From the NCBI RefSeq assembly GCF_001597735.1, contig NZ_LUTS01000001.1:1-64000 (forward strand): a DNA stretch of 64,000 nucleotides, read 5' to 3'. Below the pieces are notes generated by a model. The model ran no database searches, was not told where the DNA came from, and saw only the letters and a list, made by a program, of their open reading frames with translations. The stretch comes from Neptuniibacter pectenicola (lineage in GTDB: Bacteria; Pseudomonadota; Gammaproteobacteria; Pseudomonadales; Balneatricaceae). This document shows positions 11,187 to 33,973 of this stretch, piece by piece. The position numbers and the translations under genes were made by a program. Positions within the stretch are counted from its first letter, which is position 1. Each line of letters opens with the position of its first letter.

Positions 11187-11187
11187 C

Positions 11188-12529: not shown

Positions 12530-12556
12530 AAACGGCCTCTTAAAGAGACCGTTTTT
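12530..12556. terminator. Bidirectional terminator
   Basis: AAACGGCCTCTT and AAGAGACCGTTT arms (one mismatch) are flanked by A and T runs between the convergent tetR and glnS genes. Confidence 0.75.
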
Positions 12557-12586
12557 ATCGCGTACCTAATGTTAGGCGTAGGTGTA

Positions 12587-14537: not shown

Positions 14538-15068
14538 ATGATAATTCTCCATACCAATTTTGGTGACATATCCTTAGAGCTTGATTACGAAAAAGCCCCA
14601 AAAACAGCAGAAAACTTTGAACAATACGTAACCGACGGTTTTTACGATGGTGTGATTTTTCACCGCGTGATTAACGGGTTTATGCTTCAGGGTGGTGGCT
14701 TTGAACCGGGCATGGTTCAAAAAGTAACACGCGAAACAATAGAAAACGAAGCCGATAACGGACTTTCCAATGCAGCGGGTACGGTTGCAATGGCGCGGAC
14801 AATGGACCCGCATAGCGCTTCTGCACAATTCTTTATTAACGTATCCGATAATACCTTTTTGGATCATACGGCTAAAACAACAGAAGGCTGGGGTTATGCC
14901 GTCTTTGGTAAAGTCGTTGAAGGTATGGATGTAGTTAACAAACTAAAAACGGCTGCGACGACGATGCGTGCGGGCCATCAAGATGTGCCTGTAGAAGACA
15001 TCATTATTGAATCGGCTGAACTTGTAGACGAAAAAGCAGACGCCGAAGCAGAAAGCACTGAAGAGTAA
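14538..15068 (+). CDS. ppiB: Peptidyl-prolyl cis-trans isomerase B (cyclophilin)
   Basis: Cyclophilin B speeds proline isomerisation in the cytosol. The protein has the signature [15 protein letters not shown], the active-site block [13 protein letters not shown] and [15 protein letters not shown]. The start at ATG 14538 gives [16 protein letters not shown], matching cyclophilin N-termini; an open frame extends 33 codons further but lacks homology. The C-terminus has an extra acidic tail ([13 protein letters not shown]) not found in E. coli PpiB. It ends two bases before lpxH, so the two are co-transcribed. A TATAAT -10 box lies at 14496. Confidence 0.93.
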
Positions 15069-15070
15069 AC

Positions 15071-15805
15071 ATGTCTGTTTATTTCATCTCAGATTTACAT
15101 CTGAAACCCGAACGCCCGGATCTTTCTCGGGCGTTTTCATCTTTCCTATCACACACCGCTCAAGGTGCTGATGCGTTATACCTGTTAGGTGATATTTTTG
15201 ATGCCTGGATCGGCGATGATGCGCCCGTACCCGGTATTGAGCCGTTAGTCGCTCAGCTCAAACAGCTCAGTGATGGCGGTTGCAAAATTTACTTTCAACA
15301 TGGCAACCGTGATTTTTTAGTGGGTTCAGACTTTACCGACCGTATTGGGGCCGAGTTACTTCCCGAACAAACCGTACACACCCTGCCCATAGGCAAGGCG
15401 CTCATCTTGCACGGTGATCAGCTCTGCACTGACGATCAAGAGTATATGCAGTTTCGTGCGATGGTACGTAACCCCGCATGGCAACAACAGATCCTCAGTA
15501 AACCTATAGATGAACGTATAGCCCTCGCAAAACAGCTACGCACCACCAGTCAAGAACGGACAGCGGAAAAGGATGATTACATCACGGATGTTAATGCCGA
15601 TGAAGTGAATAAGCAGCTTAACAAGGCCGATGTTACGCTCATGATTCATGGTCATACCCACCGTCCAGCCATCCATACCTTTGATACTCAAGGCCATGAA
15701 GCCACTAGGATTGTACTCGGGGATTGGGACACGCAGGGTTGGTATTTAAAAGTCGATCATGACAACTATCAACTGATCAGCTTTGGTATTGCCGATGCGC
15801 CTTAA
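15071..15805 (+). CDS. lpxH: UDP-2,3-diacylglucosamine diphosphatase
   Basis: LpxH cleaves UDP-2,3-diacylglucosamine to lipid X at the inner membrane in lipid A synthesis. The 244-residue protein has calcineurin-like phosphoesterase motifs: YFISDLHL at the start, LGDIFDAWIGDD near residue 40, HGNRDF near 79, LHGDQLC near 114, and MIHGHTHRPAIH near 195. It lies two bases after ppiB, a common gammaproteobacterial arrangement. A hairpin at 15848 follows. Confidence 0.95.
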   Translation: MSVYFISDLHLKPERPDLSRAFSSFLSHTAQGADALYLLGDIFDAWIGDDAPVPGIEPLVAQLKQLSDGGCKIYFQHGNRDFLVGSDFTDRIGAELLPEQTVHTLPIGKALILHGDQLCTDDQEYMQFRAMVRNPAWQQQILSKPIDERIALAKQLRTTSQERTAEKDDYITDVNADEVNKQLNKADVTLMIHGHTHRPAIHTFDTQGHEATRIVLGDWDTQGWYLKVDHDNYQLISFGIADAP

Positions 15806-15847
15806 ATAAGACGTACGCTAGATAAAGAGTATTCAGTTATTACGATA

Positions 15848-15869
15848 AGCGCTTGCCTTAACAAGCGCT
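15848..15869. terminator. Hairpin between convergent lpxH and miaE
   Basis: Perfect arms AGCGCTTG and CAAGCGCT enclose six bases. No long T run follows, so it may be a weak terminator serving both strands. Confidence 0.55.
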
Positions 15870-15886
15870 GATAACCTCAGCCAGCC

Positions 15887-16498
15887 TTACGCCATAAATG
15901 TCGGCTTACCACTATGAAAACGAAACTCATCGTCATCACTTTCAACCAAGTTCTGTTCCACCTCTCTAAAGACTTGAATACGGTCTTCAATAGGCTCACC
16001 CGCATACTCTTCCGCTAAACCAAGATAATCTTGATAATGACGCCCTTCCGATTTAAGTAATGAACGGTAAAACTTAGCCAGCTCATCATCTAAGAAAGGG
16101 GCCAGTTTGGCGAACCGTTCACAGGATCGAGCCTCTATAAATGCACCTACAATTAATAGATCAATAAGGTGGCCGGGTTCATAGGTACGTACCTTTTTCA
16201 GCATTCCACCAGCATAACGTGCCGATGAAAGGTGCGTATAAACCACACCCCGCTCCTGCATAATCGCAAGCACTTGCTCAAAATGGATCAACTCCTCCCT
16301 CGCCAAACGGGACATTTTATTTAACAGGTCAACACGATCTACATAGCGAAACATCAAACGCATCGCCGTTGATGCCGCCTTCTTTTCACAATGGGCATGA
16401 TCGATCAATAAAATATCCTGATTGGCCAGTGCCGCCTGAATCCATAAATCAGGGGTTTCACAGGCTAAAAAGCCTTTAATCTCATCGAGCGCGTCCAT
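15887..16498 (-). CDS. miaE: tRNA-(ms2io6A) hydroxylase
   Basis: MiaE is a diiron monooxygenase that hydroxylates the isopentenyl group of ms2i6A37 in tRNA. The 203-residue protein has the expected carboxylate/His iron ligands in paired helices: DHAHCEKKAA, LAREELIHFEQVL, GAFIEARSCERF and KSEGRHYQDYL. The length matches the family. It stands alone, convergent with lpxH. Together with trhO it is a second oxygen-dependent tRNA modification enzyme in the window. Confidence 0.93.
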   Translation of the reverse strand: MDALDEIKGFLACETPDLWIQAALANQDILLIDHAHCEKKAASTAMRLMFRYVDRVDLLNKMSRLAREELIHFEQVLAIMQERGVVYTHLSSARYAGGMLKKVRTYEPGHLIDLLIVGAFIEARSCERFAKLAPFLDDELAKFYRSLLKSEGRHYQDYLGLAEEYAGEPIEDRIQVFREVEQNLVESDDDEFRFHSGKPTFMA

Positions 16499-16878
16499 TA
16501 ATTGTATCCAATACCATGCTAACTAAAGTGGGGAGGCATTATAGCGAGCGATGAATACGCATGCACCACCCCATACCCAGAGAACCGCGACAAAGTATGA
16601 ATAAATTGATAAAGCGCAGTCCTACTCTCTTTTTATTCGATACCCAACGCAATAAAGACACCGTTACCGACTAACAAGCAACTAGAAAAAACACCGCCCG
16701 CGCCCTTGTAAAACAGGCTAAAAACCCTCTCGCCAGCGGCGTTAATTTCTCGATAAATTCCAAGGATAAAAAAAAACTAATCAAAAGCCCCATTTACTTG
16801 TAATTTTTCTTCGAAAAGTCATAAAAAAGACTGTATACTGTCGCGCAATTTTAGGACCTCACATAGTCGAGTAAAGAG
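16499..16878 (+). promoter_or_regulatory. Upstream region of the second fusA gene
   Basis: The 380 bp hold no gene. A TATACT -10 candidate lies at 16834-16839, about 40 bp before the ATG, with a poor -35 element near 16811. A purine-rich AAAGAG ribosome site precedes the start. I see no S10/str operon genes nearby. Confidence 0.4.
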
Positions 16879-18963
16879 ATGACAGACCTATCCAAGTACA
16901 GAAACATTGGTATTTTCGCGCACGTAGATGCGGGTAAAACCACTACAACAGAACGTATCCTAAAGCTTACGGGTAAAATCCATAAGACTGGTGAGGTTCA
17001 CGATGGTGAATCTACTACTGACTTCATGGAACAGGAAGCTGAGCGCGGTATTACCATTCAGTCCGCGGCGATCACCACTTTCTGGAAAGATCACCGTATG
17101 AACGTAATCGATACTCCGGGACACGTTGACTTCACTGTTGAAGTATATCGTTCTCTTAAAGTACTTGATGGCGGCATCGGCGTATTCTGTGGTTCTGGTG
17201 GTGTTGAACCACAATCAGAAACTAACTGGCGTTATGCAGATGAATCCGGCGTATCCCGTATCATCTTCGTAAACAAACTAGACCGTTTGGGTGCTGACTT
17301 CCTTAAAGTTGTTGAGCAGATCGAAAACGTACTAGCGGCTAAGCCTCTTGTTATGACATTACCAATCGGTCGTGAAGATGACTTTGTTGGTGTTGTCGAC
17401 ATCCTAAGCAAAAAAGCTTACGTTTGGGATGATACTGGCCTACCTGAGAACTTCGAAGTTAAAGACGTACCTGCCGACATGGTAGACGACGTTGATATGT
17501 ACCACGAACAGCTAATCGAAACAGCTGTTGAGCAAGATGACGACCTAATGATGGCTTACATGGAAGGCGAAGTACCTTCTATTGAAGAGATCAAACGTTG
17601 CATCCGTAAAGGTACACTTGAACTAGCGTTCTTCCCAACATACTGTGGTTCCGCATTCAAAAACAAAGGTATCCAGCTAATCCTTGATGCCGTTGTAGAT
17701 TACCTACCATCACCGACAGAAGTTGTTCCACAGGATCTAACGGATGAATTAGGTGAACCAACAGGTCAGGTTGCTACCGTATCTGTTGACGAGCCATTCC
17801 GTGCCCTTGCATTCAAAATCATGGATGACCGTTTCGGTGCCCTTACCTTTATCCGTATCTACTCCGGTAAGTTGAAGAAAGGCGACACTATCCTCAACTC
17901 GTTCACAGGCAAAACTGAACGTATTGGTCGTATGTGTGAAATGGAAGCCGACGAGCGTAAAGAACTTGAATCCGCTCAAGCCGGTGACATCATCGCTATC
18001 GTAGGCATGAAAAACGTACAGACAGGTCACACACTTTGTGATCCTAAACATGAATGTACGCTTGAAGCTATGGTATTCCCTGAGCCAGTAATCTCTATCG
18101 CTGTTGAGCCTAAAGATAAAGGCGGTGCTGAGAAAATGGGTCTTGCCATTGGTAAAATGGTTGCAGAAGATCCAACATTCCTAGTACACACAGATGAAGA
18201 TAGCGGCCAAACAATCCTTCGTGGTATGGGCGAGCTTCACCTAGATATCAAAGTAGATATCCTTAAGCGTACTTACGGCGTTGACCTAATTGTTGGTGAG
18301 CCTCAAGTAGCTTACCGCGAAACAATCACTAAAGAGATTGAAGATTCTTATACCCATAAGAAACAGTCTGGTGGTTCTGGTCAGTTCGGTAAAATCGATT
18401 ACCGTATCAAACCAGGTGAGCCAAACTCTGGCTTCACATTTACCTCTACAGTTGTAGGCGGTAACGTACCTAAAGAATTCTTCCCTGCTGTTGAGAAAGG
18501 CTTCAAGAGCATGATGGAACAGGGTGTTCTAGCTGGCTTCCCAGTACTAGACGTTGAAGTAGAGCTTTTCGACGGTGGTTTCCACGCGGTTGACTCCTCT
18601 GCTGTAGCCTTCGAAATCGCTGCAAAAGGCGCATTCCGTCAGTCTATCCCTAAAGCAGGCGCACAGCTTCTTGAACCTATCATGAAAGTTGACGTGTTCA
18701 CGCCAGAAGATCACGTAGGTGATGTTATCGGTGACCTTAACCGTCGTCGCGGCATGATCTCTGGTCAAGAAGCAGCAGGTTCTGGTGTACGTATTAAAGC
18801 AGACGTTCCACTATCTGAAATGTTCGGTTACATCGGACACCTACGTACAATGACATCCGGTCGTGGTCAGTTCTCTATGGAGTTCTCTCACTACAGCGCT
18901 TGTCCAACAAGTGTTGCAGAAACGGTTATTGCTGACGTTAAAGCACGCAATGCCGCTAAGTAA
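16879..18963 (+). CDS. fusA2: Elongation factor G, second paralogue (EF-G1B/FusA2 type)
   Basis: EF-G is the GTPase for ribosome translocation and, with RRF, recycling. The 694-residue protein has G1 [16 protein letters not shown]2 [10 protein letters not shown]3 DTPGHVDF and G4 NKLDRLGAD, then domains II-V ending in [11 protein letters not shown]. It is not in the rpsL-rpsG-fusA-tuf cluster but stands alone with its own promoter and terminator. Details such as [19 protein letters not shown] resemble the Pseudomonas-type second EF-G. That this genome also has a canonical fusA is inferred, not seen. Confidence 0.88.
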
Positions 18964-19714: not shown

Positions 19715-19724
19715 CCCACCTTCA

Positions 19725-20190
19725 TGCCCGGTACGGATGCCAGTGCGAATGAATTACGCACCCAACATCCTATAGACACCGTATCCCGTGTAGGACCTCA
19801 CCCTGTGGGCGAATGAATTACACACCTCAACCTCCTATATACACCGCATCCCTTGTAGGAGACCACCCCGTGGGCGAATGAATTACGCACCCTCCCCCAA
19901 CAAACACACCAACCCCTTCGGCCAGAGGCTGGCCTCCTACAGACAACCCCTATAGACACCGCATCCCTTGTAGGAGCCCACCCTGTGGGCGAATGAATTA
20001 CACACCTCAACCCCACAAACACACCAATCCCTTGTAGGAGCTCACCCTTTATGCCCGGAACGGGTGCCAGGGCGAATGAATTACACACCTCAACCCCACA
20101 AAAACACAAACACCTTTGGCCAGGCACTCGTTCCGAGCATAAAAGCTGGCCTCCTACAAACACTGCATCAACGCACCAATACGGTGCGAA
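19725..20190. repeat. REP-like palindromic repeat cluster B
   Basis: At least seven units of the family described at 10.8 kb occur here in both orientations, e.g. TTGTAGGAGCCCACCCTGTG at 19967 and TTCGGCCAGAGGCTGGCC at 19917. A plus-oriented unit near 20032 and an inverted unit near 20115 carry an enlarged loop with the same insert (TTTATGCCCGGAACGGGTGC or its complement). No gene is supported in the cluster. Confidence 0.85.
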
Positions 20191-20371: not shown

Positions 20372-22519
20372 ATGGATCAACTTAAAAGTAGTTCAATGAA
20401 CCTCAGCGCGCAGGAAAGAAAGTGGCTTAACTGGTTTGGTAGCACTGGTAAGTTTGCAATGTATAAATCCTGCTTTCTAAACCGTCACACCTATTCATCA
20501 GTGGAGCAAACCTTTGAAGGTATTGCCGCCACTCGCGTGAAAATTCTTAATCAATGGGTAGAACACCAATGGGATCAGCTCGCCTTTCTTGCTGAGCACC
20601 TTGGCCCCACCTTTGATAATATCGACCTGTCGTGGCTCACCCAACGATTGGAAGCGAACCGCGATTTTTCTGAACTGTTTTTGATCGACCTTGAAGGCAC
20701 GGTCATCAGTTCGACTCATCGCACTCATATAGGAGCATCCGACCTTGCCAGCGCCGCCTGGACCCAAGGCGTAAGAAAACAGTTTTTACATGGTCCCTAC
20801 ACCGACCCTCTCACGCTAGATATTGGTGCCTCCAGCTCTAAGTTCCACGATGAAGTCACCCTGATGTTCTACCAACCCATTGAGAAAAATGGCGAGTCTA
20901 TCGGCGCTATTTGTGGTCGTGTACCGAACGATGTTCTCGGTGACCTGATCCAACGGGAGGCTGGCCATATTTATCCAGAATCCGGTGATAACTATATTTT
21001 TATGGTCGATTCTCATCTCGACCGGAATATTCAGCCGGGTACGGCGTTATCACGCTCCCGGTTTGAAGATAATACCTTTTCCCACGGCGAGAACTTAAAA
21101 AGTGGCATCCACACCCGATGGGGTACGGTCAGAGTCCAACGCCATACTGAGCTAGAGTTGCGGTTTACCGATCCCGCCACCGGCCAACTCCATCCGGGCG
21201 TACGCGAAACTATTCGTAACGGTGAAAATCTATTTATCACCTACCCGGGTTATTCTGACTATCGCCACATTCCGGTGATCGGCAAGGGAGTAACCTTTCA
21301 ACTAAAAGGCTCGCCCGACCGTTGGGGTATGATGTGCGAAGGTGATTTAGAAGAGGTCTATCGTCGCCGCTCGATCAACCTAAGCTTAATGAAAGGCTTT
21401 GGCTTCACTGCCGCGGCGATTCTGGGCATTAACAGCGCCCTGCACACCTTCACTGAGCTACCGCAATATGCGATTGATGCGGTATCGCTGCTGCTGTTAC
21501 TGGTTACTACCCTAATGTTCCCTAAACTCAGCACCAACAAGTTAGCATCTCGGCTCGATGATATGACCGAGGTTATTCGCACCATTGCTGAAGGTGAAGG
21601 CAACTTGCGACAACGGGTGGAGCCCCACAAACTGGTCGCCGATGAAACCGGCGACATGGCCCGCTGGATTAATAGTTTTATTGATAGCCTCGACGGTATT
21701 GTTGGCCAAGTTATTACCTCCAGCAGCCACGTTAAACAGACCAACCAAGCGATGCTCGAGACCAATAAAGAGGCTTATCAAGTATCAGCTGAGGTCAGCG
21801 ATGCGATTCAGGAAATACTGGTACTACTCGAAGAGCAACTCACTGAAATCGGTCAAGCCTCAAACACCGCTGAATCTCTCAAAGAGGCAATGGATACAGT
21901 CGTGTCGGAGGCCCGTCAACAGTTTGAATCCGTGCGCTCTGGTACTGAAGATATTCGCAACATCGTTGAAACATCGGCGAAACAAGTTAACTCACTCAAT
22001 AGCCGTACCGTTGAAGTCGGTAAAATTATTGGCGTTATTAGTGACATCACCAACCAAACCAACTTATTGGCTCTTAATGCCGCCATTGAAGCGGCCCGAG
22101 CCGGTGAACATGGACGAGGCTTTTCCGTTGTCGCAGAAGAGGTTCGCGGCTTAGCCCATCGCACCGCCGCTTCGGCGAATGAGATTCAGCAGATGATCGA
22201 AGGGATTCAGCAAGAAACCCAGAGCGCCGTAGATTTTATGGAATCAGGGGTACAAGAGGTTGATCGCAATTTGAAAAGAACGGAAGAAGCCTCGAATGAG
22301 AACACATCCTTGCACAACCTCGTGGAGCATATGTTTTTAGCCATCAAACAGCTAAATGATAACAGCCAACGTCACGGTGATGCTGCCCGACGAGTAGGCG
22401 TCTCCGCAGAACAGATGAATGGGTCGATTAGCACGCTACAAGAACGCTCCACCTCGGTGAAAAACACCGCCCATAAACTCAACCAGTTAGTTAGCGTGTT
22501 CCAAGTTAGCGCATACTAA
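20372..22519 (+). CDS. Methyl-accepting chemotaxis protein with N-terminal Cache-like domain
   Basis: The protein is about 715 residues. Residues 1-335 resemble a PDC/Cache sensor ([17 protein letters not shown], then [19 protein letters not shown]), but no N-terminal membrane segment precedes it. Two hydrophobic stretches follow at roughly 338-358 and 366-388, then a HAMP-like linker and the methyl-accepting domain with hairpin tip [20 protein letters not shown]. It relays a ligand signal to CheA/CheW. Because both membrane segments come after the sensor, the sensor may be cytosolic. The start is ATG 20372, with GAGGG 11 bases upstream. Confidence 0.88.
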
Positions 22520-22524
22520 AGCAG

Positions 22525-22838
22525 GCTCAAGCCCATTCGCCCAAAGGTTGGCCTCCTACATGCACGTCCGGTGTAGGAGCTCACCCCGTGGGCGAAAGAA
22601 TTAGGTGCAAGAACAAGAAAAAATCACCCGAATAATTTACGTACTTAACCTCACAAAAACACAACCCATTCGGCCAAAGGTTGGCCTCCTACACACCGCT
22701 CTATGTGGAGCCCACCCTTTATGCCCGGAACAGGTGCCAGGGCGAATAAATTACGCACCCAACCCAACAAAAACACCTCCTCCCTGTAGGCGCTCACCTT
22801 TATATGCCCAAAACGGCTGCCTCAGCGAATAGGACTCC
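22525..22838. repeat. REP-like palindromic repeat cluster C
   Basis: Degraded units of the same repeat family lie between the chemotaxis gene and the CRISPR trailer, e.g. TGTAGGAGCTCACCCCGTGG near 22572 and a long-loop unit near 22700-22748. The units are more divergent than in clusters A and B. Confidence 0.75.
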
Positions 22839-22853
22839 GCGCGAAGCACTACC

Positions 22854-22881
22854 TTTCTAAACGGGCTGTGTGCAGTGAAAC
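22854..22881 (+). repeat. Degenerate type I-F CRISPR repeat at the trailer
   Basis: The 28 bases keep TTTCTAA at one end, CTGTG in the middle and GCAGTGAA at the other, aligning to the array repeat at about 23 of 28 positions with one small gap. The two stem arms (CTGCC/GGCAG) of the normal repeat are destroyed. It lies 270 bp beyond the last perfect repeat, with a KilA-N gene fragment between them. Confidence 0.75.
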
Positions 22882-23150
22882 TCTTTAATCAGATAGAGCT
22901 TGAATTCAACAGAGATCCAGCTGGCAAACTCAAAGGCGATATCTTTTTGCGCGAAGGTGCCACCATAGCGGCCTCGTCTGGAAACCAGCCCTTTAGCATT
23001 GGTCGATTCGATCCACTGCTTGGGTGTTAGGGTGAAGCTATTAAGTCCAGCCTCTTTTTTAAACCCGTCGAATTCGACGTATTTAAACTCTGAATTATTC
23101 AGCTGCTCCCAAATCCCAAGAAATTCAATGATGTTCCTGTTACGAAGCCC
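22857..23150 (-). pseudogene. KilA-N domain gene fragment, broken at both ends
   Basis: An open minus-strand frame of about 97 codons with no start codon reads RNRNIIEFLGIWEQLNN, KQWIESTNAKGL, GRYGGTFAQKDIAFEFASWI and ends VEFKLYLIKEF. This is the KilA-N DNA-binding domain of phage and prophage proteins. It begins right at the last perfect CRISPR repeat, where roughly the first 30-40 residues of the domain are missing. It loses homology exactly at the degenerate repeat, whose bases encode HCTQPV and a stop. It is thus a gene piece bounded by repeat sequence on both sides. Confidence 0.75.
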
Positions 23151-23151
23151 G

Positions 23152-26100
23152 TTTCTAAGCTGCCTGTGCGGCAGTGAACTCCTACCGATACGCGCAAGCG
23201 CGAAAGCGGTATTTCTAAGCTGCCTGTGCGGCAGTGAACCTGCTGCTGGCCTATCTGTTTTATGCCTATGTTTCTAAGCTGCCTGTGCGGCAGTGAACTT
23301 GGTAGAAATGGAGCTACGTATGTCCCCGATTTTCTAAGCTGCCTGTGCGGCAGTGAACTGTGAAATCAAAGTTTAAACCGCCTGCGCCTATTTCTAAGCT
23401 GCCTGTGCGGCAGTGAACCAGCAGAGGCGTTATTCGCTGGAGATTCAGGATTTCTAAGCTGCCTGTGCGGCAGTGAACGGATTAGACATATAACCATAAG
23501 CTTTGCGGGATTTCTAAGCTGCCTGTGCGGCAGTGAACGTATCTATGATTTTATTTATCATTTTTTAACGTTTCTAAGCTGCCTGTGCGGCAGTGAACTG
23601 CCATTTGACTCTAGTCCCCTCGAACGCATCTTTCTAAGCTGCCTGTGCGGCAGTGAACATGTATCAGCATACGTGAATTGAGGCTCACCTTTTCTAAGCT
23701 GCCTGTGCGGCAGTGAACTGTGTACGCGTTAACTGATGTATCACAAGGTATTTCTAAGCTGCCTGTGCGGCAGTGAACTAATCGTTCAACTTTATCACAG
23801 TGTTATGAACTTTCTAAGCTGCCTGTGCGGCAGTGAACGTTCCTTCCGCATTTAATCGTGACGATGAAAATTTCTAAGCTGCCTGTGCGGCAGTGAACTA
23901 TTATCAGTATTTTTGTTTTCGGTTTCTGTTTTTCTAAGCTGCCTGTGCGGCAGTGAACGCGATCGATACATACTGCTCGGATGTTGCAATTTTCTAAGCT
24001 GCCTGTGCGGCAGTGAACCTAAGCAAGCAGAATTGACTTGGTGACAGGCTTTTCTAAGCTGCCTGTGCGGCAGTGAACTTTTGCCAGTCGTCTTCAGCTT
24101 CTTTTTTGCATTTCTAAGCTGCCTGTGCGGCAGTGAACCATCGGAAAATACTCCGGTGACTGAGCCTTCATTTCTAAGCTGCCTGTGCGGCAGTGAACTA
24201 TGTATTAACTAGCATGATATTCGAGCTAACTTTCTAAGCTGCCTGTGCGGCAGTGAACAGATAGGATCTGATGTCACACCTGATCATCTATTTCTAAGCT
24301 GCCTGTGCGGCAGTGAACTCTGTCTGATGCTGATAGCTCTATTCAACAAATTTCTAAGCTGCCTGTGCGGCAGTGAACACGTTTCAACCGTCTAATCCGG
24401 TCGAGTGTCATTTCTAAGCTGCCTGTGCGGCAGTGAACGTTCTTATTGGGCTGCTGAGTTCTATGGTTCGTTTCTAAGCTGCCTGTGCGGCAGTGAACTC
24501 CATAAATTCATTTCGTTGATCTCCTTAGTTTTTCTAAGCTGCCTGTGCGGCAGTGAACGAAATTGCTGGGATTTCACAACAGATGTCGATTTTCTAAGCT
24601 GCCTGTGCGGCAGTGAACCCATAGAATCAAAATATAAAATCTCACCATCTTTTCTAAGCTGCCTGTGCGGCAGTGAACTCTCCGATGCAGACTGGCTAGC
24701 AGGCCGCACATTTCTAAGCTGCCTGTGCGGCAGTGAACGGATCTGAATAAATCGCACGAACTTCTGAAGTTTTCTAAGCTGCCTGTGCGGCAGTGAACTC
24801 ATTGCAGGAGATCGACCGTATGTTTCCATCTTTCTAAGCTGCCTGTGCGGCAGTGAACTGAAATTACCCGCAGAGGCGGTAACAGCAAACTTTCTAAGCT
24901 GCCTGTGCGGCAGTGAACGATGCTCACAAACCGCACACATGCCACCTTTATTTCTAAGCTGCCTGTGCGGCAGTGAACTCTTCATCACTATCTCCCGCGC
25001 CAAATAACAATTTCTAAGCTGCCTGTGCGGCAGTGAACGCGCTTTGTTGGCTTAGTGCGAGTGATAGCTCTTTCTAAGCTGCCTGTGCGGCAGTGAACGC
25101 TCGTATCTATGCTATGGATAGGGTTATGAATTTCTAAGCTGCCTGTGCGGCAGTGAACATATAGACGTTGCTGACGAAAACGGAGTAACTTTTCTAAGCT
25201 GCCTGTGCGGCAGTGAACTCCTTGGTGCGTTAATTTCTGCTTTCTTCACTTTTCTAAGCTGCCTGTGCGGCAGTGAACGCTTATCCCTGTTTAGAAAATG
25301 TTATCAACTCTTTCTAAGCTGCCTGTGCGGCAGTGAACTGCAGATTCGTCGATGTCCCCCAAATAAATACTTTCTAAGCTGCCTGTGCGGCAGTGAACGT
25401 TTTCATTAATGAGCTGGTCGGCGCTTTGTTTTTCTAAGCTGCCTGTGCGGCAGTGAACCGTGATGTAGAGGAGCTATGGCGTGAAGTAGCTTTCTAAGCT
25501 GCCTGTGCGGCAGTGAACGTAGTAGATTGATAAGAGCCACACCACTCATGTTTCTAAGCTGCCTGTGCGGCAGTGAACAACCGTGTTGAGAGTGTTTTGC
25601 TGGGTGTGTCTTTCTAAGCTGCCTGTGCGGCAGTGAACCGCTAGATAAGCGAAGAGCTGCGGCCTCTGCTTTTCTAAGCTGCCTGTGCGGCAGTGAACAT
25701 TAAAAAAACAGCACATAGGGCATTAGAACTTTTCTAAGCTGCCTGTGCGGCAGTGAACTTAAAAGAACCCGGATCACCATGATGTATAGCTTTCTAAGCT
25801 GCCTGTGCGGCAGTGAACATTCGTTGGGTCGTGCGCGTTGTATGGTAGATTTTCTAAGCTGCCTGTGCGGCAGTGAACGTTTCCTTATTTCTAAAGGTGT
25901 CCACGATGTCTTTCTAAGCTGCCTGTGCGGCAGTGAACGTTTTCATTAATGAGTTGGTCGGCGCTTTGTTTTTCTAAGCTGCCTGTGCGGCAGTGAACAT
26001 AACGTCTACTAGTACCTCCGATACTGGGCATTTCTAAGCTGCCTGTGCGGCAGTGAACAGAAGCTAGAGACAGAATAAGTTGAGCCTACTTTTCTAAGCT

Positions 26101-26298
26101 GCCTGTGCGGCAGTGAACTTATTATCAACGCATATACAGAGACGTTGGCATTTCTAAGCTGCCTGTGCGGCAGTGAACGTGTTGGCGGTTCCTTATATCA
26201 GTATAACTGTTTTCTAAGCTGCCTGTGCGGCAGTGAACTAATCCCCAGTGCGGGTCGTACGTTTTATGTTTTTCTAAGCTGCCTGTGCGGCAGTGAAC
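23152..26298 (-). CRISPR. Type I-F CRISPR array, 53 repeats and 52 spacers
   Basis: The 28-bp repeat, written on the plus strand, starts TTTCTAAGCTGCC and ends GGCAGTGAAC, with stem CTGCC/GGCAG, the I-F repeat type. Repeats recur every 60 bp with 32-bp spacers; the second spacer from the trailer (23240-23270) has 31. All 53 repeats appear identical. The cas genes and leader lie at the 26.3-kb end, so transcription runs on the minus strand and new spacers enter at 26298. Spacers at 25399-25430 and 25939-25970 differ by one base. Open frames across the array are repeat artefacts. Confidence 0.98.
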
Positions 26299-26427
26299 TG
26301 GAAGTATAACGCAGAAAAAATAGCTGCATCAAACACTTAACCTGATATTGGCAAAAAGACCAATGGTTTCAGCGATTTCTGCAACTATCTGTTTCTATTA
26401 CTTATTTTTAAAGAGCAATTTTTTTGG
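26299..26427 (-). promoter_or_regulatory. CRISPR leader with putative IHF site
   Basis: The 129 bp between the csy4 stop and the first repeat are A+T-rich and gene-free. CATCAAACACTTA (26327-26339) matches the IHF consensus WATCAANNNNTTR at all but the first base and lies 29 bp from the leader-proximal repeat, as expected for IHF-assisted spacer integration. ATTGG/CCAAT forms a small dyad around 26346-26364. Confidence 0.6.
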
Positions 26428-27066
26428 TTAAAAATCAGGAACAGTAGAAGCTTGATCTCCACTTAAGGCGCTCAGGCCATAGCAGTTAAAAAGCCCTTCT
26501 TGCGCGTCACTGACCTTTATTCGTTCAATGAACAGTGGGAATCTGGCGGCGCCCTTGGAATTCCCCGCTTTGGTTTCTTGGCTTTCCATCCAAATAAAAG
26601 GCGCTTTTGATTCTGCCTTTGGTTTGGTTTTTTCAAGCTGTTTTAGACAGTCCGCAATGCTTTGTCCTGATTGTTTTGCCCAAAGCTCCGCTTTAGCCTG
26701 CATATCTTTTTCGATACGAGCCAGCCCTTTTACTTTCTTGCGGACGAAGGTAACAAGAGGTGCGTCCTCCGGCACTGGCTGTATTGATTTAAGATGCGTG
26801 TAATCCTCGAATCGACTCAGAAATCCAACGAGATTTAATGTTTCCAATTGCTCTTTTTCTTTAGCCAGCACCCTCAGCTTATTACCCAAAGGAAAGCCTT
26901 TACCGCCATAAGCCGGGAAGCTGACCGCTATAGCACTATGCTGTGCATCCACCTTCTGCTCCACTAAGGCGATATGCACTTGCTGATAGATTTTCTGCCA
27001 GAGAAAACCTAGTGCAATATCCGCATCCGACAGCAGGGTGATATCTTGGTAGTAGTTCATTGTCAC
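26428..27066 (-). CDS. cas6f: Cas6f/Csy4 crRNA-processing endoribonuclease
   Basis: Csy4 cleaves pre-crRNA at the base of the repeat hairpin and stays bound to the crRNA 3' end in the I-F Cascade. The 212-residue protein starts with the MNYYQDITLLSDADI block. It has a His near residue 31 (QQVHIALVE) in the position of the general base of the Pseudomonas enzyme, and the C-terminal FPLFIERIKV and FNCYGLS segments with a conserved Tyr. It is the last gene of the cas operon, 12 bp after csy3 and 129 bp before the array. Confidence 0.93.
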   Translation of the reverse strand: MTMNYYQDITLLSDADIALGFLWQKIYQQVHIALVEQKVDAQHSAIAVSFPAYGGKGFPLGNKLRVLAKEKEQLETLNLVGFLSRFEDYTHLKSIQPVPEDAPLVTFVRKKVKGLARIEKDMQAKAELWAKQSGQSIADCLKQLEKTKPKAESKAPFIWMESQETKAGNSKGAARFPLFIERIKVSDAQEGLFNCYGLSALSGDQASTVPDF

Positions 27067-27078
27067 CTCTCACTACCC

Positions 27079-28059
27079 TTACTTCGCTGATTTACTAAAT
27101 ACACCGCCACGAATTAAGTTCGCAGTAACATACATTTTTTGCTCTGGTAATAATTCACTGCTATTGACCCAGTCAACCAATAACGAATACAAGTCGCCTT
27201 CTTTTTTGCTTTTACGGAAAGCATCACCAATTTGGGTAACCGCACCAAAAGGTTCAATCGCAATAGGTTGCCCTTGTTCTTCATAACGATTATACCAAGT
27301 ATCGATCGTGCGAATAGCGTTACCGATTTTTACATTATGGATAGCGGCGCAGCCTTCAAGTTTAAACAAGACCTTGCCCTTTTCACCCATATTCATTTCT
27401 TGTGAGGGGAACACATGCTGCTGATGGCCTAGTTTAACAAAGGCATCCACCTCAACAAGCACAAAGTTTTGTTGATCTCCTTTTAACCCTTCAGCAATGA
27501 TTGCTGCCAACTCCTGTAAACCAGCATTGTCGCTAGATTTTTCAAACTCATTTAAAGAAAAGTCATAAGCATTAAATTTAAAAGAGCTGCTCCTTGCCTT
27601 AACAATAATCGTTATTTCTTCTGCACCAACACGGTTACGCCATAGAAAACGTCCATTAGCTATATTGTAAGCGTAGCGATAAGCCAAAGTATCAATACCT
27701 TTACCTTGTTTAAAATCTGCTGTTTTAGCTTTAATTACGTCACTAAAGGCGGGGGAATTACACCCAAAAGGTATGCCCAAATTACCAACAACACGCATGC
27801 TAAAACTTACTTTTAGGGTATCGTGTTTCAAAGGCAAATTAGCATCATCACTGTCTGATGATACGGGATTAGGCTTGATTTTATCCGCATCACTTGTGCC
27901 ATGCGCACTTTGGGTAGAACGGTTTTGTCTTTTAGTAATAGGGATAGCCTGCCATATCTCTGAAGATGTAATATTTTCCCATTCGCCTGAAAACATTAAA
28001 GCGTCGGATGTTTCTAATTTACGTTCAAAAGCTAACATACTTGGTAATTCAATAGTCAT
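27079..28059 (-). CDS. cas7f: Cas7f/Csy3, Cascade backbone subunit
   Basis: Six copies of Csy3 coat the crRNA spacer in the I-F complex. The 326-residue protein has the characteristic N-terminus (PSMLAFERKLETSDALMFSG) and family blocks RFLWRNRVGAEEI and VFPSQEMN. Length is typical. It lies 18 bp after csy2 with an AAAGGAATAA ribosome site just before the ATG. Confidence 0.94.
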   Translation of the reverse strand: MTIELPSMLAFERKLETSDALMFSGEWENITSSEIWQAIPITKRQNRSTQSAHGTSDADKIKPNPVSSDSDDANLPLKHDTLKVSFSMRVVGNLGIPFGCNSPAFSDVIKAKTADFKQGKGIDTLAYRYAYNIANGRFLWRNRVGAEEITIIVKARSSSFKFNAYDFSLNEFEKSSDNAGLQELAAIIAEGLKGDQQNFVLVEVDAFVKLGHQQHVFPSQEMNMGEKGKVLFKLEGCAAIHNVKIGNAIRTIDTWYNRYEEQGQPIAIEPFGAVTQIGDAFRKSKKEGDLYSLLVDWVNSSELLPEQKMYVTANLIRGGVFSKSAK

Positions 28060-28077
28060 TATTTATTCCTTTTAAAA

Positions 28078-29250
28078 TTAATAATAAACTTCATCTGTTA
28101 TTGATTCAGTGGGTGAAACTTTATTTTCTGTGCTTTGCTTGCACAAATACCAATCTTTTTTATAAGGCGCATATCTCCAGATACTGGCTTGCCATTGCTC
28201 TTGTCTTTTTAAGCGATGAACACTTTGCCACTCACCGACAGAATGTACCGATTCAACAAAACACAAGTCAGTTTCAGAATCTCTGGAGCCATCAATTTCT
28301 CCTGCTGGATAAACATCCGTAATGGCTTTATAGCCTGTCATTATTGGCACCAAATAACCCGCTTTCGGTTTTTTAACAAACTCCCAATTAGCCGCCGTTT
28401 TTTCATTTGGTTCTAAGTAACTTTCCCATTGCATTAAAATTTTAGGATTAATATTTTCCTGCTGCTCTTCAAAGTAAGCAATTAACTCATTAGGTATATT
28501 TTCTTTTTGATAGGGCTGACTTTTATGTTCAAGCCAAATATCATTTAATACCAAAATTGACTCAGATTTCTCCGCTTGTTTGGCCAAGTGCTTATCTAAC
28601 AATTCACAAACTGGCCGCGCCACTTGCTTCAAGGCAATAAAATCAAACCATGCATCTAGTAGCTCTTCTTTAGGGTTACTCTCCTTAAACTTTGAAAAAT
28701 ACTCGGCTAAATAACTGGATCTATCTTGCAAAATAAAGCCGGGTAATAGCTTCCGTCTAACACTTTTAAGTTGCTCGTCTTTATCCAAGTCTATAATTTC
28801 TACATTCTCTACAGACAACACTGTTCCGCCTGCTAAGCGTTGTATTTGGCAGTTTTTTTTAATAAATGCTGTCAATAAGTCTTGTAAACCACCTAAGTAA
28901 CCATCTACTGGTATTAGTAGGGAAACCGTCATATTCATTTTGGCTTCTTCAATAACAGATGGTGCTTTGTGAGTATCTCCTGGCTTTGTAGCTTCTAAGT
29001 AATTAATTCCTCTATTCTGAGAAAATAACAATCCATTTTCTGTTTTAAACGTAATAGGTTTACTACTGTGTGCGATAACTGCGCACCCACCTAGAGAAAA
29101 ACTATTTAAAGTTAAATCTGTTTTTAATTTTCTATTTAAATTATGACTAAAGCCTAAAAAATGCGTTATTGCTGGAAATCCCCACGTAAAACCAGAAGCG
29201 GCATTAGCGTTTTGCACCTTAACTCTTTCAATTAATAGGTACTGGCTCAT
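28078..29250 (-). CDS. cas5f: Cas5f/Csy2, Cascade subunit
   Basis: Csy2 caps the 5' handle of the crRNA together with Csy1. The 390-residue protein starts YLLIERVKVQNANAASGFTW followed by GFPAITHFLGFSH, the typical Csy2 start, and has LLPGFILQDRS and a C-terminal GEWQSVHRLKR block. It is longer than many Csy2 proteins, with extra sequence in its second half. Its first codons overlap the csy1 end by four bases. Confidence 0.92.
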   Translation of the reverse strand: MSQYLLIERVKVQNANAASGFTWGFPAITHFLGFSHNLNRKLKTDLTLNSFSLGGCAVIAHSSKPITFKTENGLLFSQNRGINYLEATKPGDTHKAPSVIEEAKMNMTVSLLIPVDGYLGGLQDLLTAFIKKNCQIQRLAGGTVLSVENVEIIDLDKDEQLKSVRRKLLPGFILQDRSSYLAEYFSKFKESNPKEELLDAWFDFIALKQVARPVCELLDKHLAKQAEKSESILVLNDIWLEHKSQPYQKENIPNELIAYFEEQQENINPKILMQWESYLEPNEKTAANWEFVKKPKAGYLVPIMTGYKAITDVYPAGEIDGSRDSETDLCFVESVHSVGEWQSVHRLKRQEQWQASIWRYAPYKKDWYLCKQSTENKVSPTESITDEVYY

Positions 29251-30683
29251 ATTGTTTCCTCCTGCTGCCTTAATCCTTTAGTGTTAAACTCTTCTCTAAA
29301 GTTAAATTTAAATATTTTCATCCACAGCTTGGAATGTGCATCTTGTGGTGTAAATTTTTCATTGGTATTAGTTAGGCGATTATTTAGCCAAGCAGAAAAA
29401 TCTTGAATAACAACCGTCTGCCAATCACTGCTATTTTTAATTGCTGAAAAAACTTCATCTTGGCGATAGCGATCTAATAACACTTGATGCTCAACCTTTA
29501 ATTTAATTCCCTCTGTGGCAGACCAACCTGATGGCAAGGCTTGTATAGATTTAATATAAACCAGCACCTCATCAGCTATATTTTCAATCCACTCTTCAAC
29601 CCAGCGCATGCGTTTAGGATCTTTAATGCTGAGTTGTAAGTTTTCAAAGCGAGTTAAAAAGTCAGCCAAATATTGAATATTTTCTTTAACTTCATAATTT
29701 CCGGATAATTCATAAAAAAAGTTCACTTTGTCTGCGGGAGCTTTTAGCTGTGAATGCCAAACGGGTGGTTCAGATGAAACTACGTAGTAAACACCATAAG
29801 AACTTTTTGAATCTTTATATAATTTCCAGTTTCTTCCTCTATTTAGCATTGAAACATTCTGCGGATTATTTCCACCAACTCTAATAACTGCGTTTTTATT
29901 TTCCGGCATTATCAACCGAGGTGCTAAAGAACCATTTTTATCAAAATAATCAGCTCTTTTTTTATATTTAGCACTTGTTATTTTGGTAAAAATTGATTCA
30001 GAAAGTGTAGACGATGTCAATGGAGCTAGCAGATGATAGTTTTCACTATCGACAGGAAAATAGACCTGCTTAGTGAAACTTACTGACTTTATACTTCTTT
30101 TCTCTACAAGAGCTTTAAAGCCCGCTTTCCAAATTTCTAACTGCTCTTTATTTTTATAAAAACCATCTAAAAAACAAAAGTTATCTTCAAAGATTAAGTC
30201 ATAAATAGTCGAGCCGTCATAAGACAATGCTAAGAATCTAGAGATACTTATTAATGCACCATTATTGTGTGCCATATCGAAAACTTTAGAATCGTTCGCA
30301 ATAGAAGCAGTTGTTAGTAAAGGGAATTGGTCTTCATAGTCCACTAAAATCCCGTCGTTGGGTGCTGAGCTATGGCTGAACTTTAGTGGATGAGTGGTTT
30401 TAATTATTCTATTTCCAACACCTATTTTTGTTGTTGTGCTTTTATCGAGCCACTCAGCTATTTCATCCGGGTTAGTTTTTAGTTCATCAAGCTCTAATCG
30501 CTTATTTTCTATAGAAACAGAAAGCCTTACTTGCTTTTTTTCGTTCAATTCAGTTTTTAAAGCAGCAGTCTTTTCTTCTATATATTTAGTCGTTTTAGCC
30601 AAAGCTGATGTGTTTATCCTTGTCTGAAAAAATAAAATTATTGCATCACGCCAACCATTCATACTGAGATCTTCATTCATCAC
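29247..30683 (-). CDS. cas8f: Cas8f/Csy1, PAM-recognising Cascade subunit
   Basis: Csy1 is the large subunit that recognises the PAM (GG/CC in known I-F systems) and recruits Cas2-3. The 478-residue protein has the recognisable blocks WLDKSTTTKIGVGNRIIKTT, THPLKFSHSSAPNDG and IRVGGNNPQNVSMLNR. It overlaps cas2-3 and csy2 by four bases on each side, so translation is coupled. Confidence 0.92.
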   Translation of the reverse strand: MMNEDLSMNGWRDAIILFFQTRINTSALAKTTKYIEEKTAALKTELNEKKQVRLSVSIENKRLELDELKTNPDEIAEWLDKSTTTKIGVGNRIIKTTHPLKFSHSSAPNDGILVDYEDQFPLLTTASIANDSKVFDMAHNNGALISISRFLALSYDGSTIYDLIFEDNFCFLDGFYKNKEQLEIWKAGFKALVEKRSIKSVSFTKQVYFPVDSENYHLLAPLTSSTLSESIFTKITSAKYKKRADYFDKNGSLAPRLIMPENKNAVIRVGGNNPQNVSMLNRGRNWKLYKDSKSSYGVYYVVSSEPPVWHSQLKAPADKVNFFYELSGNYEVKENIQYLADFLTRFENLQLSIKDPKRMRWVEEWIENIADEVLVYIKSIQALPSGWSATEGIKLKVEHQVLLDRYRQDEVFSAIKNSSDWQTVVIQDFSAWLNNRLTNTNEKFTPQDAHSKLWMKIFKFNFREEFNTKGLRQQEETI

Positions 30684-33600
30684 CTTACCTCTTGGTAAAC
30701 CCCTAAATTAGAAAAATATTTATATTCGTTTATATCGTTTTTTTTATAGCTAACCAGCCTTAATTCACCAAAACGCTGGGCAGCAGTTTCTTCACTGATG
30801 TTAAAATCATGGGCTAATTCGCGGTATATTTTTTGCGGGTTTAAATCAAACCAAAAACTGAATCCTTTGGCTGGAAAAATGGAGGGCTCTTCCTTAATTG
30901 AGATACCAGCCCCTGATAATGCGCCCATTTTTGGTGGGTAAACCGTTTCGTTCTTCCATTCCCAAGTCAGTTCATTGTTCTTGTAGAGTAAATAAACAGC
31001 TTCGTCTTTATCGGACTTTCTAAATACTTGTAATTTTTGAAGCACCCCGCACCAATGTGCCTGCTCTTTCCACCATAGTTTGGCTGAATCAGGGTTTTTA
31101 AATAACTTTTCAAGTAACGCTTGGTGCTCTAGTGACACCAAATTGTCTAGCGGTGGCTGTTTGCTCTTAACCACCCTTTCTACCGCGTTAATGGTTTGAT
31201 ATTGTGACTCTTGCAATATTTCCCTTAACGTATGCGCATTTAACTTAAGCTTTAAGTTTTCCACTTCAAAACCCGGTTTATTAAAACAGCGCTCACAGCC
31301 TTTAAGCTGTTTTATATTCTGATTAATAAGTAGAATATTCTCTTGATCAGGTACGTGATCTCTATGTCTTAGCAGCCGCCCTGCGATCTGAATAATCGAA
31401 CGCATAGAGCTAGGTTCAATAATTGCCCAATCATAATCGTGGTCACGTCCAACCTCTGCTACAGGCGAAGCTAATACAATAAACAATTGGTTTTTTGCTG
31501 TTGTTTGTTCAATTAAATTTTGTAGGTTTTGCGGTGGCCAGTTTTCTTTACGGTTTAACATTTGGTCTAACTGACTTTCTAAGTGGGAACGCACTGCTAA
31601 AGGGTAACAGCTGTGATACACACATAAATGTATGTGCGTATGTTCAGGTACAGATAAGTTTAGTAAAGCCTTAGCGACTGCAACCATTGGTTTGATGTTA
31701 GCCATGCGCACTAAACCAATAGAAACCTGCTTGCCGTTTAGCTTTACATGATTGTTGTTATGTAGCGCCATTGCTCCTTGCAAAATTGTTTGAGCAAAAT
31801 TGACATAGATATTATCTGTTAATGTTAAATTATCGAGAATTTCAGCTTTGTGCTTTGCTACGCCTGAACTTAAATATTCCACTCGTTTTTTAACATACTT
31901 TTCATGCTGCTCTTTAAAGTTAGAAAAATATTGAACTTCCGCTTTAATAGCGCCGCCCTTTTCACGCTCATCAAACCAAGCACAGTTAATGTTTTTATTC
32001 CAAACAGTAATATTCACTTTGGTATATTCAGCCCAGCCTGCTTGATATGCCTGGAAAGCAGCAAAGGCCAAATCTGGTGGCATGGTGGCAGTAGAAAGTA
32101 GAACCCGACTACCTAACATGCCAGCCCAGTAAACCAATCGACATAAAGCTGGCAAGTCTTCTAGACCGAAATCATCAGGTTCATCAATGACTAAATCAGA
32201 AGTGAGCAGTCTTAACATCGGACCAATTTGTTTGCCGCCTTTGGTTCCATCTGTTGCAGGGATTAAATGATCAATAGTGCAAACCAACGCAGGGGCTTGC
32301 ACAAGCTTTTCAATGCGCGGATTAGTGCAAGTCCAGTGATGTAAACTGTGTTCGGCACCTGATAAGTCATAATCAACATATAGTTCTGGATCTAAGAATT
32401 CTTCAACAGACTCACTGCCGGTCCCGAAGCTTTCTTCAGATAATTTTTTGTTTTGCTCATTTTCAAATAAGGCTTTAGAAGCAGAACCGCCTACGGCAAT
32501 CGCTAATTGCTCTGAGGTTAAATCCAACTGTTTACGATATTCTCGGCCTGTTTGTAAGGTGAGCGTTCTTAACCCCAGAGCTACGGTAAAGCGAGAATCT
32601 TGCTCTTTATTCGCTAAGGCATACATGATTTTGGCATTGGCAAGGGTTTTCCCCTTACCTGTCGATGCCATATTAATACCAAAAAAGCCTTGTTTCTTAC
32701 TGGATTCACTTAGCTCTAATGCAACTTTTTGCGCTGTTATTTGCCAAGCGTATTTATCATCAGCTTTGCTACTTTTTAAAAACTTATTATCTTCCAACGC
32801 TTGTAAGCTGCTTTTAAGTTGTGGCAAAGCGCCTACAATATCTACCGCGTGTTTAGCTACACCAATTAAATGCTCATCAAGCTGTTGTTTACACGCTTTC
32901 GTTTCCCTGTCTGTATTAGCAAAAACTTCATAGTTAGGGCTTTGCCATTCTTTGGTTGGCTCTTTTTGTGCCGAGTAATGATGATCTGCAAGCATCAATG
33001 CCATACGAGCAAGATGACTAGTAAATAATTCATCATGTAGAAGGTTTTTATCGGATAACTGTTTGATATTTTGCAGTGCTTTATCTGCGGCCTTTATGGC
33101 TCTAAGTCGCCACTTAGTGCTTTTATACGGCAAACCTTCGCCATCAAACGTCCAATTATCTTGTAGATAACTTTGGCTATCTTCGTCTTTAAAGTTGTAA
33201 GAGTTCCAGAAAACTTGTAACTCTTCTGCAAACCAACTATTTAGCGGACTGACTCCATTTTTATGCAGAATTGCTGGTAAGGTTTCTGGAATTAAGTTCT
33301 CCTTCCAACTAGGTACAAAAGGCAACTTATGGTGGCTAAGCACTAACCAACCGACCAACTGAGCCAAAGGTGGTAAATGAGCTAATGGGTTATTTCTACC
33401 ATCACTAATACCGTCTTGGTAGATATCATCACTATGATTTTTATCTATTTCAGTTAACGCTATTAACCACTGTTCGTCTGTTTGCTCTCCAACAAATGCC
33501 TGAAAAATTCTTAGTGACACCCATTCATGCCTGACAGGTTCATATTTATTCTTACTTTCGCCTTTTAATTTTTCCTGAAATAGAATATTTGCTTTACCAA

Positions 33601-33973
33601 AATCATGAAAGAGAGCTGCTATAGCGACTGCATTTTTCATTAAAGTTAAGCGCTGCCATTTTTCTTTATCCATAAACGGCACTAAAGCACCTTCGGTATA
33701 GTTCACTGGCACGATGCCTTCACTGTTGAATTTCCGTTTATTGCCCACGACCCATAATAACTGGCTACGTGATCGTGAGCGCATCCAATGGCAGCTCACC
33801 GCTGTGCTTTTACTCGCGGTTTTACGAAGCAGTTTTTTAACCGCTAGAAGACCGTCTTGAGTAATGATGGTTTGCCATGTGTTATCACCAATACGGTCGG
33901 CAAAGGCATCTAATACGCGGCGGGTCTTTTTCAGTGCATTTTTTTCGCATTGGGAAACGAAGGTGACCATCAT
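30680..33973 (-). CDS. cas3: Cas2-Cas3 fusion nuclease-helicase (type I-F)
   Basis: This fusion degrades target DNA after Cascade binding and also joins Cas1 in spacer acquisition. The 1097-residue protein has an N-terminal Cas2-like domain (MVTFVSQCEKNALKKTRRVL). An HD nuclease follows (ALFHDFGKANILFQ near 155). The SF2 helicase has Walker A ASTGKGKTLANAK, Walker B LVIDEPDDF, STATM and the motif VI QIAGRLLRHRD, and a C-terminal domain completes the protein. All catalytic motifs look intact. It overlaps cas1 and csy1 by four bases. Confidence 0.96.
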   Translation of the reverse strand: MMVTFVSQCEKNALKKTRRVLDAFADRIGDNTWQTIITQDGLLAVKKLLRKTASKSTAVSCHWMRSRSRSQLLWVVGNKRKFNSEGIVPVNYTEGALVPFMDKEKWQRLTLMKNAVAIAALFHDFGKANILFQEKLKGESKNKYEPVRHEWVSLRIFQAFVGEQTDEQWLIALTEIDKNHSDDIYQDGISDGRNNPLAHLPPLAQLVGWLVLSHHKLPFVPSWKENLIPETLPAILHKNGVSPLNSWFAEELQVFWNSYNFKDEDSQSYLQDNWTFDGEGLPYKSTKWRLRAIKAADKALQNIKQLSDKNLLHDELFTSHLARMALMLADHHYSAQKEPTKEWQSPNYEVFANTDRETKACKQQLDEHLIGVAKHAVDIVGALPQLKSSLQALEDNKFLKSSKADDKYAWQITAQKVALELSESSKKQGFFGINMASTGKGKTLANAKIMYALANKEQDSRFTVALGLRTLTLQTGREYRKQLDLTSEQLAIAVGGSASKALFENEQNKKLSEESFGTGSESVEEFLDPELYVDYDLSGAEHSLHHWTCTNPRIEKLVQAPALVCTIDHLIPATDGTKGGKQIGPMLRLLTSDLVIDEPDDFGLEDLPALCRLVYWAGMLGSRVLLSTATMPPDLAFAAFQAYQAGWAEYTKVNITVWNKNINCAWFDEREKGGAIKAEVQYFSNFKEQHEKYVKKRVEYLSSGVAKHKAEILDNLTLTDNIYVNFAQTILQGAMALHNNNHVKLNGKQVSIGLVRMANIKPMVAVAKALLNLSVPEHTHIHLCVYHSCYPLAVRSHLESQLDQMLNRKENWPPQNLQNLIEQTTAKNQLFIVLASPVAEVGRDHDYDWAIIEPSSMRSIIQIAGRLLRHRDHVPDQENILLINQNIKQLKGCERCFNKPGFEVENLKLKLNAHTLREILQESQYQTINAVERVVKSKQPPLDNLVSLEHQALLEKLFKNPDSAKLWWKEQAHWCGVLQKLQVFRKSDKDEAVYLLYKNNELTWEWKNETVYPPKMGALSGAGISIKEEPSIFPAKGFSFWFDLNPQKIYRELAHDFNISEETAAQRFGELRLVSYKKNDINEYKYFSNLGVYQEVR

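Follow-up and report, generated by a model that had tools for sequence, protein, structure and literature searches.

A KilA-N gene fragment in the last spacer slot of a Neptuniibacter type I-F CRISPR array: a probable relic that carries a palindrome common to KilA-N genes

INTRODUCTION

How did an internal piece of a KilA-N gene come to lie between two repeats at the trailer end of a CRISPR array, and does it have a function there? The question is raised by a 64,000-nucleotide stretch of Neptuniibacter pectenicola DNA (contig NZ_LUTS01000001.1, positions 1 to 64,000), which we call the window. The initial annotation of this DNA had offered three origins for the piece, namely, an abnormally long captured fragment, a recombination scar between repeats, and a repeat-flanked RNA with a regulatory role. 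Here, we compare the window genome (G000) with Neptuniibacter sp. 1_MG-2023 (G003; its locus is L009), a sister species of the same genus, and with KilA-N genes found elsewhere.

RESULTS

Organization of the type I-F locus and its trailer

The features of the window that bear on the question are as follows.

22854 to 22880, minus strand: degenerate terminal CRISPR repeat (27 nt, 22 of 28 consensus bases, stem broken)
22881 to 23151, minus strand: internal piece of a KilA-N gene (271 nt, in the last-spacer slot, without start codon)
23058 to 23087, no strand assigned: 30-bp quasi-palindrome with centre GAATTC (13 of 15 arm pairs; perfect in the G003 copy)
23152 to 23179, minus strand: last perfect type I-F repeat (Rfam CRISPR-DR4)
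23152 to 26298, minus strand: type I-F CRISPR array (53 perfect repeats, 52 spacers)
26299 to 26427, minus strand: leader, from array to cas6f (112 of 120 aligned positions identical to G003)
26428 to 27066, minus strand: cas6f (csy4)
27079 to 28059, minus strand: cas7f (csy3)
28078 to 29250, minus strand: cas5f (csy2)
29247 to 30683, minus strand: cas8f (csy1)
30680 to 33973, minus strand: cas2-3 of the I-F1 type (alignable with the I-F2 cas2-3 of G003 over about its first 76 codons)
33970 to 34932, minus strand: cas1 (matches Cas1fv better than Cas1f)

On the minus strand, the order is thus cas1, cas2-3, cas8f, cas5f, cas7f, cas6f, leader, and array. The array belongs to type I-F by its 28-nt I-F repeat, its regular spacers of about 32 nt, and the adjoining I-F cas operon; Rfam CRISPR-DR4 counts 53 repeats in the window, and the spacers are 32 nt long in 51 cases and 31 nt in one. 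The lone 31-nt spacer (window positions 23240 to 23270) is the next to last, at the trailer end. Dispersed intergenic repeat families (GTAGGAG...GTGGGCGAATGAATTA and others) were also seen at window positions 19719 to 20163 and 22529 to 22820, and the part that was searched has many matches in the window genome and some elsewhere in the genus.

A KilA-N piece joined to repeats at both ends

The piece replaces a 32-nt spacer between the last perfect repeat and the degenerate repeat. Its match to the Pfam KilA-N family (PF04383; E value of 6.5e-12, 45.7 bits against a curated cut-off of 23.8) places it in that family, and its nearest intact homologues are 85 to 87% identical in protein sequence. 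Comparison with intact homologues bore out the earlier description of a fragment that has neither a start codon nor the N- and C-terminal parts of the gene. At 271 nt, the piece is not an ordinary spacer, the 104 ordinary spacers of the window and G003 arrays all being 31 to 33 nt long.

The initial annotation had placed the boundaries of the piece at repeats on both sides. We agree, with homology ending at the repeats to within 4 to 5 nt that are common to the repeat and some intact genes. At the 5' join, the repeat ends in AGAAA and is followed by C, and GAAAC is present in 3 of 11 aligned intact or partial homologues, the exact shared bases being absent from the other 8. At the 3' join, the repeat sequence GTTCAC meets the gene sequence TTTCA, and TTCA is common to the same three homologues, which include the two closest intact ones (G624 and G294). 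A search for the exact repeat-to-KilA-N join gave two matches in genome_contigs (84,980 species), both in G003, and none in viral_contigs.

The degenerate repeat reached a gapped score of 15 (22 identities, 5 mismatches, and one deleted base). This score was reached by none of 2,000 dinucleotide shuffles of the 670-nt trailer and, among 100 shuffles of the ~60 kb beyond the array, by one; a comparison with shuffled sequence had been proposed in the initial annotation. The orthologous terminal repeat in G003 lies nearer the consensus, with a score of 21 versus 15, and, by eye, its terminal stem can still pair with one G-U, whereas that of the window is broken. The shuffle scores and the better-kept G003 ortholog led us to reject chance as the source of the degenerate repeat. 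Its presence and its destroyed stem were described correctly at the outset; its size and matches are 27 nt and 22 of 28 rather than 28 bp and about 23 of 28. A decayed last repeat at the normal spacing of 59 to 60 nt is found in two of five array stretches of relatives (G030 and G024), so a decayed end repeat alone is ordinary.

The piece in a related species

Two of 11 Neptuniibacter genomes, G000 and G003, carry the piece. The two copies are identical at 253 of 270 aligned bases (93.7%) and have the same two joins, and in G003 the piece has a repeat remnant of 14 nt on one side and a terminal repeat that is almost intact on the other. The initial annotation had named an intact, repeat-free KilA-N gene at this position in a close relative as evidence against its reading; G003 has none there, and what it has is the same piece beside a better-kept repeat.

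No spacer is common to the window and G003 arrays, each with 52. The effectors differ as well, being Cas8f, Cas5f, Cas7f, and Cas6f (I-F1) in the window and Cas5fv, Cas7fv, Cas6f, and Cas3fv (I-F2) in G003. Despite these differing effector modules, the two loci have cas1, the start of cas2-3, the leader, and the repeat in common. Thus, the piece outlived both the spacers and an effector exchange. The effector-module difference spans window positions 26428 to 33973 and L009 positions 11544 to 17032. Both arrays (window positions 23152 to 26298 and L009 positions 8265 to 11414) have 53 repeats and 52 spacers, probably by coincidence, the G003 repeat count allowing up to 3 substitutions.

A second KilA-N piece, about 150 nt long, lies in G003 on the leader side of the first and has the same 5' join and other palindrome arms. 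It is fused at ACCGG, as judged by eye, to about 200 nt of unrelated DNA that ends at the 14-nt repeat remnant and has partial matches to G004 (61 nt, 90%) and G001 (116 nt, 73%). In a tree drawn for the two G003 pieces as duplicates versus separate captures, 3 of 26 inner branches were starred. The repeat was the sole Rfam match above the gathering score in the G003 insert.

Over-long spacer or recombination between repeats

One origin for such an insert is aberrant spacer capture, in which Cas1 with Cas2-3 would have integrated a KilA-N fragment of about 270 bp as an over-long spacer when the array was young. The piece starts and stops at repeats and fills the last spacer slot, and G003 has two long inserts in succession, all of which such an event could produce. 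We nevertheless consider it quite unlikely, given the uniform length of all 104 ordinary spacers and the bases next to the segment in homologues, which by eye are AA before it and TT after it and not CC (or GG on the far side); the neighbour of an I-F protospacer is a CC PAM, as stated in passages of PMC10097628. Moreover, an integrase needs no shared bases, and both joins share bases with the closest homologues. If the donor itself carried these bases, the joins would favour illegitimate recombination over integration by Cas1. Because both joins share short sequence with the closest homologues, a scar fits somewhat better than a captured fragment. Two of the three origins first offered, scar and over-long fragment, are therefore consistent with the evidence; the third, a regulatory RNA, is not supported by the results that follow.

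Conservation of the piece and tests of function

Differences between the G000 and G003 pieces fall evenly on the three codon positions (6/6/5), and the G003 copy contains stops, so the piece is not kept as protein; on this two-species comparison, we rejected a coding role. It is, however, 93.7% identical between the species, against 73 to 76% for four-fold sites of the MCP and cas1 genes and 83% (206 of 249) for aligned intergenic DNA, and the piece also exceeds the adjacent 85 nt downstream in conservation (Fisher P value of 0.001). Four-fold identity over seven neighbouring genes ranges from 39% to 88% (beyond MCP and cas1, three genes at 77 to 88% and two at 39 to 50%), so local rates vary. 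The piece is thus more conserved than intergenic DNA and most nearby four-fold sites, which could reflect either constraint or later exchange.

To look for a guide RNA, we tested two guides, one formed by the last perfect repeat and the piece and the other by the terminal repeat and the trailer. In the window, neither had a CC-flanked target better than those of shuffled guides, and the exact 12-letter pattern of the second, CCGGTAGNGCTT, is absent from the genome. A guide RNA for a local target was accordingly rejected, there being no match beyond chance in the window. Since no PAM-flanked target was found, the terminal stem is broken, and the reading frame is not conserved, a guide-RNA role of the piece is not supported, and the regulatory-RNA origin lacks support on the same three grounds: no CC-flanked target beyond chance in the window, no Cas6f stem in the window, and differences spread evenly over codon positions. 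Among the matches listed for the 52 window spacers in the loci compared, none was aimed at KilA-N.

The piece might instead be kept for another non-coding function, for example, through its palindrome or an RNA fold that ends array transcription or binds a KilA-N protein. Its excess conservation, a fold z-score of -2.49 when it is taken with the flanking repeats, and the perfect palindrome of the G003 copy point this way. However, the window palindrome has two mismatched pairs, the piece contains no terminator-like site (a nearby one at 22522 to 22535 is no more than shuffles give), and only 2 of 11 genus genomes have the piece. The protein search gave no other KilA-N match in G000 or G003, so no such protein was found to bind the palindrome. 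These points make a retained non-coding function very doubtful.

KilA-N genes beside defence genes

A defence-type gene lies next to KilA-N at 10 of the 14 loci for which one or more neighbouring proteins were scanned. The neighbour is a type I-C-like cas operon in L042, an I-E cas operon in L010, type I restriction genes in L043, L044, L048, and L057, type III methyltransferases in L047 and L050, a DrmD-like helicase plus methyltransferase (DISARM-like) in L045, and a weak methyltransferase match in L053; L046, L049, L051, and L054 have no defence-type gene among the neighbouring proteins scanned. Given how often KilA-N accompanies defence genes, its arrival at a CRISPR locus is less of a surprise. 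We also observed that the KilA-N ORF of L042 (7771 to 8526) lies between cas3 and cas4 and that of L010 (7593 to 8324) between cas6e and cas1, the latter with the second half of the domain missing in frame, and that KilA-N often adjoins restriction-modification genes in L043 to L057, several of them overlapping the neighbour by a few bases.

KilA-N together with a degenerate repeat brings to mind the CrePA modules, whose CreP toxins typically contain KilA-N and whose CreA RNA is crRNA-like, as described in passages of PMC12737573. The piece could be what remains of a KilA-N toxin gene with a crRNA-like antitoxin beside the array, a deletion between repeats having removed the promoter and both gene ends, and KilA-N homologues do occur inside type I-C-like and type I-E cas operons. 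Against this, the piece has no start codon, a scan with the sigma-70 consensus found no promoter-like site in 22500 to 23300, and for both possible guides the CC-flanked targets are no better than chance. The CrePA architecture was looked for in the I-C and I-E loci and set aside, as no degenerate repeat was found upstream of KilA-N there. KilA-N was likewise rejected as a regular partner of type I-F: with 350 genomes drawn per family (the Csy4 and KilA-N draws having the same handles where comparable), Csy4 was found in 32, KilA-N in 26, and both in five, and the two lie on one contig only in the window genome. A decayed CrePA-like module is therefore unlikely.

A covarying palindrome within KilA-N coding sequences

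The quasi-palindrome of the piece, TTTAAATACGTCGAATTCGACGGGTTTAAA, has counterparts of about 32 bp at the same codons, with other arms, in KilA-N homologues of Pseudomonadota, Bacteroidota, Bacillota, phages, and plasmids (KilA-N genes of L010, L042 to L060, and L085 to L099). When synonymous codons were resampled according to each gene's own usage, the palindrome had a P value of <0.01 in 35 of 43 genes or gene pieces, and it ranks first within its gene in 34 of 35 long ORFs, with one tie (L034) and L089 as the exception. Across 42 distinct rows (46 less the window piece, L089, and the two pieces of G003), Watson-Crick pairs fill 603 of 672 cells, compared to a shuffle mean of 476, and 102 cells are changed on both sides, compared to a shuffle mean of 29. 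No equal of this covariation arose in 2,000 shuffles, which are not a strict probability because the rows are kin by descent, and the signal was lost in slid registers. Arm pairing ends sharply after position 16. As a measure of RNA hairpin versus DNA site, G-T and A-C mismatches number 11 versus 16 at positions 1 to 13 and 32 versus 25 at positions 1 to 16.

With 40 shuffled sites as controls for each locus, a second copy of a gene's own palindrome was clearest in L095 (23 of 28 matches, control maximum of 19); L042, L048, and L053 exceeded the control maximum by 1 to 2, and the rest did not. In 399,445 bases of 43 loci, two further loci having no recognised site, 58 palindromes had at least 12 of 14 pairs; 36 are at the KilA-N site, 8 lie within 1.2 kb of it, and 14 are farther away. 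Of the 8 near ones, five are laid out alike: L048 has two that overlap, immediately before KilA-N; L089, whose gene has no trace of the internal one (centre GAAATC), has one immediately before the start codon; L095 has one just past the stop codon; and L052 (about 8344 to 8372) has a perfect one within what by eye is an apparently decayed KilA-N piece, with an intact KilA-N gene downstream of it. The remaining three near palindromes, like all 14 that lie farther away, belong to other kinds. The near-gene palindromes would fit a cis-acting site of KilA-N genes at these few loci.

Because the arms vary freely as long as they are complementary, recognition would be of shape, hairpin, or centre and not of arm sequence. 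Tentatively, we propose that KilA-N proteins may regulate themselves and the defence operons around them via a putative intragenic palindromic site, TTTTAAnnnnnCGAATTCGnnnnnTTAAAA, and that the trailer pieces preserve this site. By the same proposal, which we hold with equal reserve, the site would dictate part of the protein sequence, with the promoter region as an alternative place for it. A mutational process, the templated correction of imperfect palindromes, could also keep arms complementary without selection. In the full-text literature, judged mostly from titles, we found no published description of a palindrome within KilA-N genes.

DISCUSSION

Our analysis suggests that the KilA-N piece is probably a relic without function, which recombination attached to the repeats where gene and repeat have a few bases in common. 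The event would date to an ancestor that both Neptuniibacter species share. Part of the interior of a KilA-N gene, whose family is often found beside defence genes, would then have been joined between two repeats at the trailer end by illegitimate recombination at those bases, leaving it in the slot of the oldest spacer. Since spacers are added at the leader end and a deletion between identical repeats should rarely extend across the decayed last repeat, the piece would stay while spacers turn over. In this model, the anatomy, the same joins in two species, the lack of common spacers, the unconserved reading frame, and the failure to find a guide target are observed, whereas we infer the recombination mechanism, the order of events, the lack of function, and the rarity of deletions that cross the decayed repeat. 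Counting against this model are the excess conservation of the piece compared to most neighbouring neutral sites, the absence of the exact 5' shared bases from 8 of 11 homologues, and the occurrence in G003 of two pieces with the same 5' join and differing arms, each self-complementary. Simple duplication and decay leave these differing self-complementary arms unexplained.

In these arrays, a long gene fragment is a fixed end piece that outlasted full spacer replacement and a difference in effector type, and it can serve to mark how array ends have changed over time. The locus also carries a warning, since a degenerate repeat with KilA-N, an arrangement that recalls CrePA, can be a relic. A covarying palindrome within the reading frame, common to KilA-N genes of several phyla, is a by-product that outweighs the relic itself; if it is a binding site, it ties a widespread protein family, of which little is understood, to the regulation of CRISPR and restriction-modification operons.

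CrePA (Shu et al. 2025, as cited in a part of PMC13131331) is the closest known system. In the account given in passages of PMC12737573, crRNA-like CreA lets Cascade repress CreP. As far as those passages describe it, CrePA resembles the present locus in a KilA-N sequence that adjoins a type I CRISPR-Cas locus together with a degenerate repeat, and differs in that the window has a 271-nt internal fragment without a start codon and no guide target was found. An intact creP with start codon and promoter (scanned for as the sigma-70 consensus) is absent, as is a PAM-flanked CreA target at a creP promoter, by the window scan and the genome-wide search for the exact pattern. A further trait of CrePA is a CreP that halts cell division once Cascade is lost.

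The CreTA modules of Acinetobacter I-F loci, as set out in passages of PMC10097628, lie between cas3 and csy1 and have two palindromic pseudo-repeats around a 20-nt pseudo-spacer with a CC-flanked target. The likeness, on that description, is of degenerate I-F repeats outside the regular array; the window, in contrast, has one broken repeat at the array end in place of two pseudo-repeats with intact inverted repeats around a pseudo-spacer, and no target was found. RacrIF1, according to the relevant part of PMC10651486, has a promoter of its own that drives high expression, and it loses activity when the stem-loop is disrupted. Like such Racr or phage solitary repeat units, as described there, the window has an isolated I-F-like repeat by a gene of likely mobile origin, but its repeat lies at a chromosomal array and has neither a stem-loop for Cas6f (by eye) nor a promoter of its own (sigma-70 consensus).

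Ordinary decayed terminal repeats, such as the degenerate last repeats of G030 and G024, offer a plainer parallel, except that they follow a normal spacer of 31 to 32 nt, whereas that of the window follows 271 nt of a gene. The KilA-N (PF04383) genes that adjoin defence genes are of the same family as the piece; they stand between operon genes, whereas the window copy is broken and lies in the trailer of an array.
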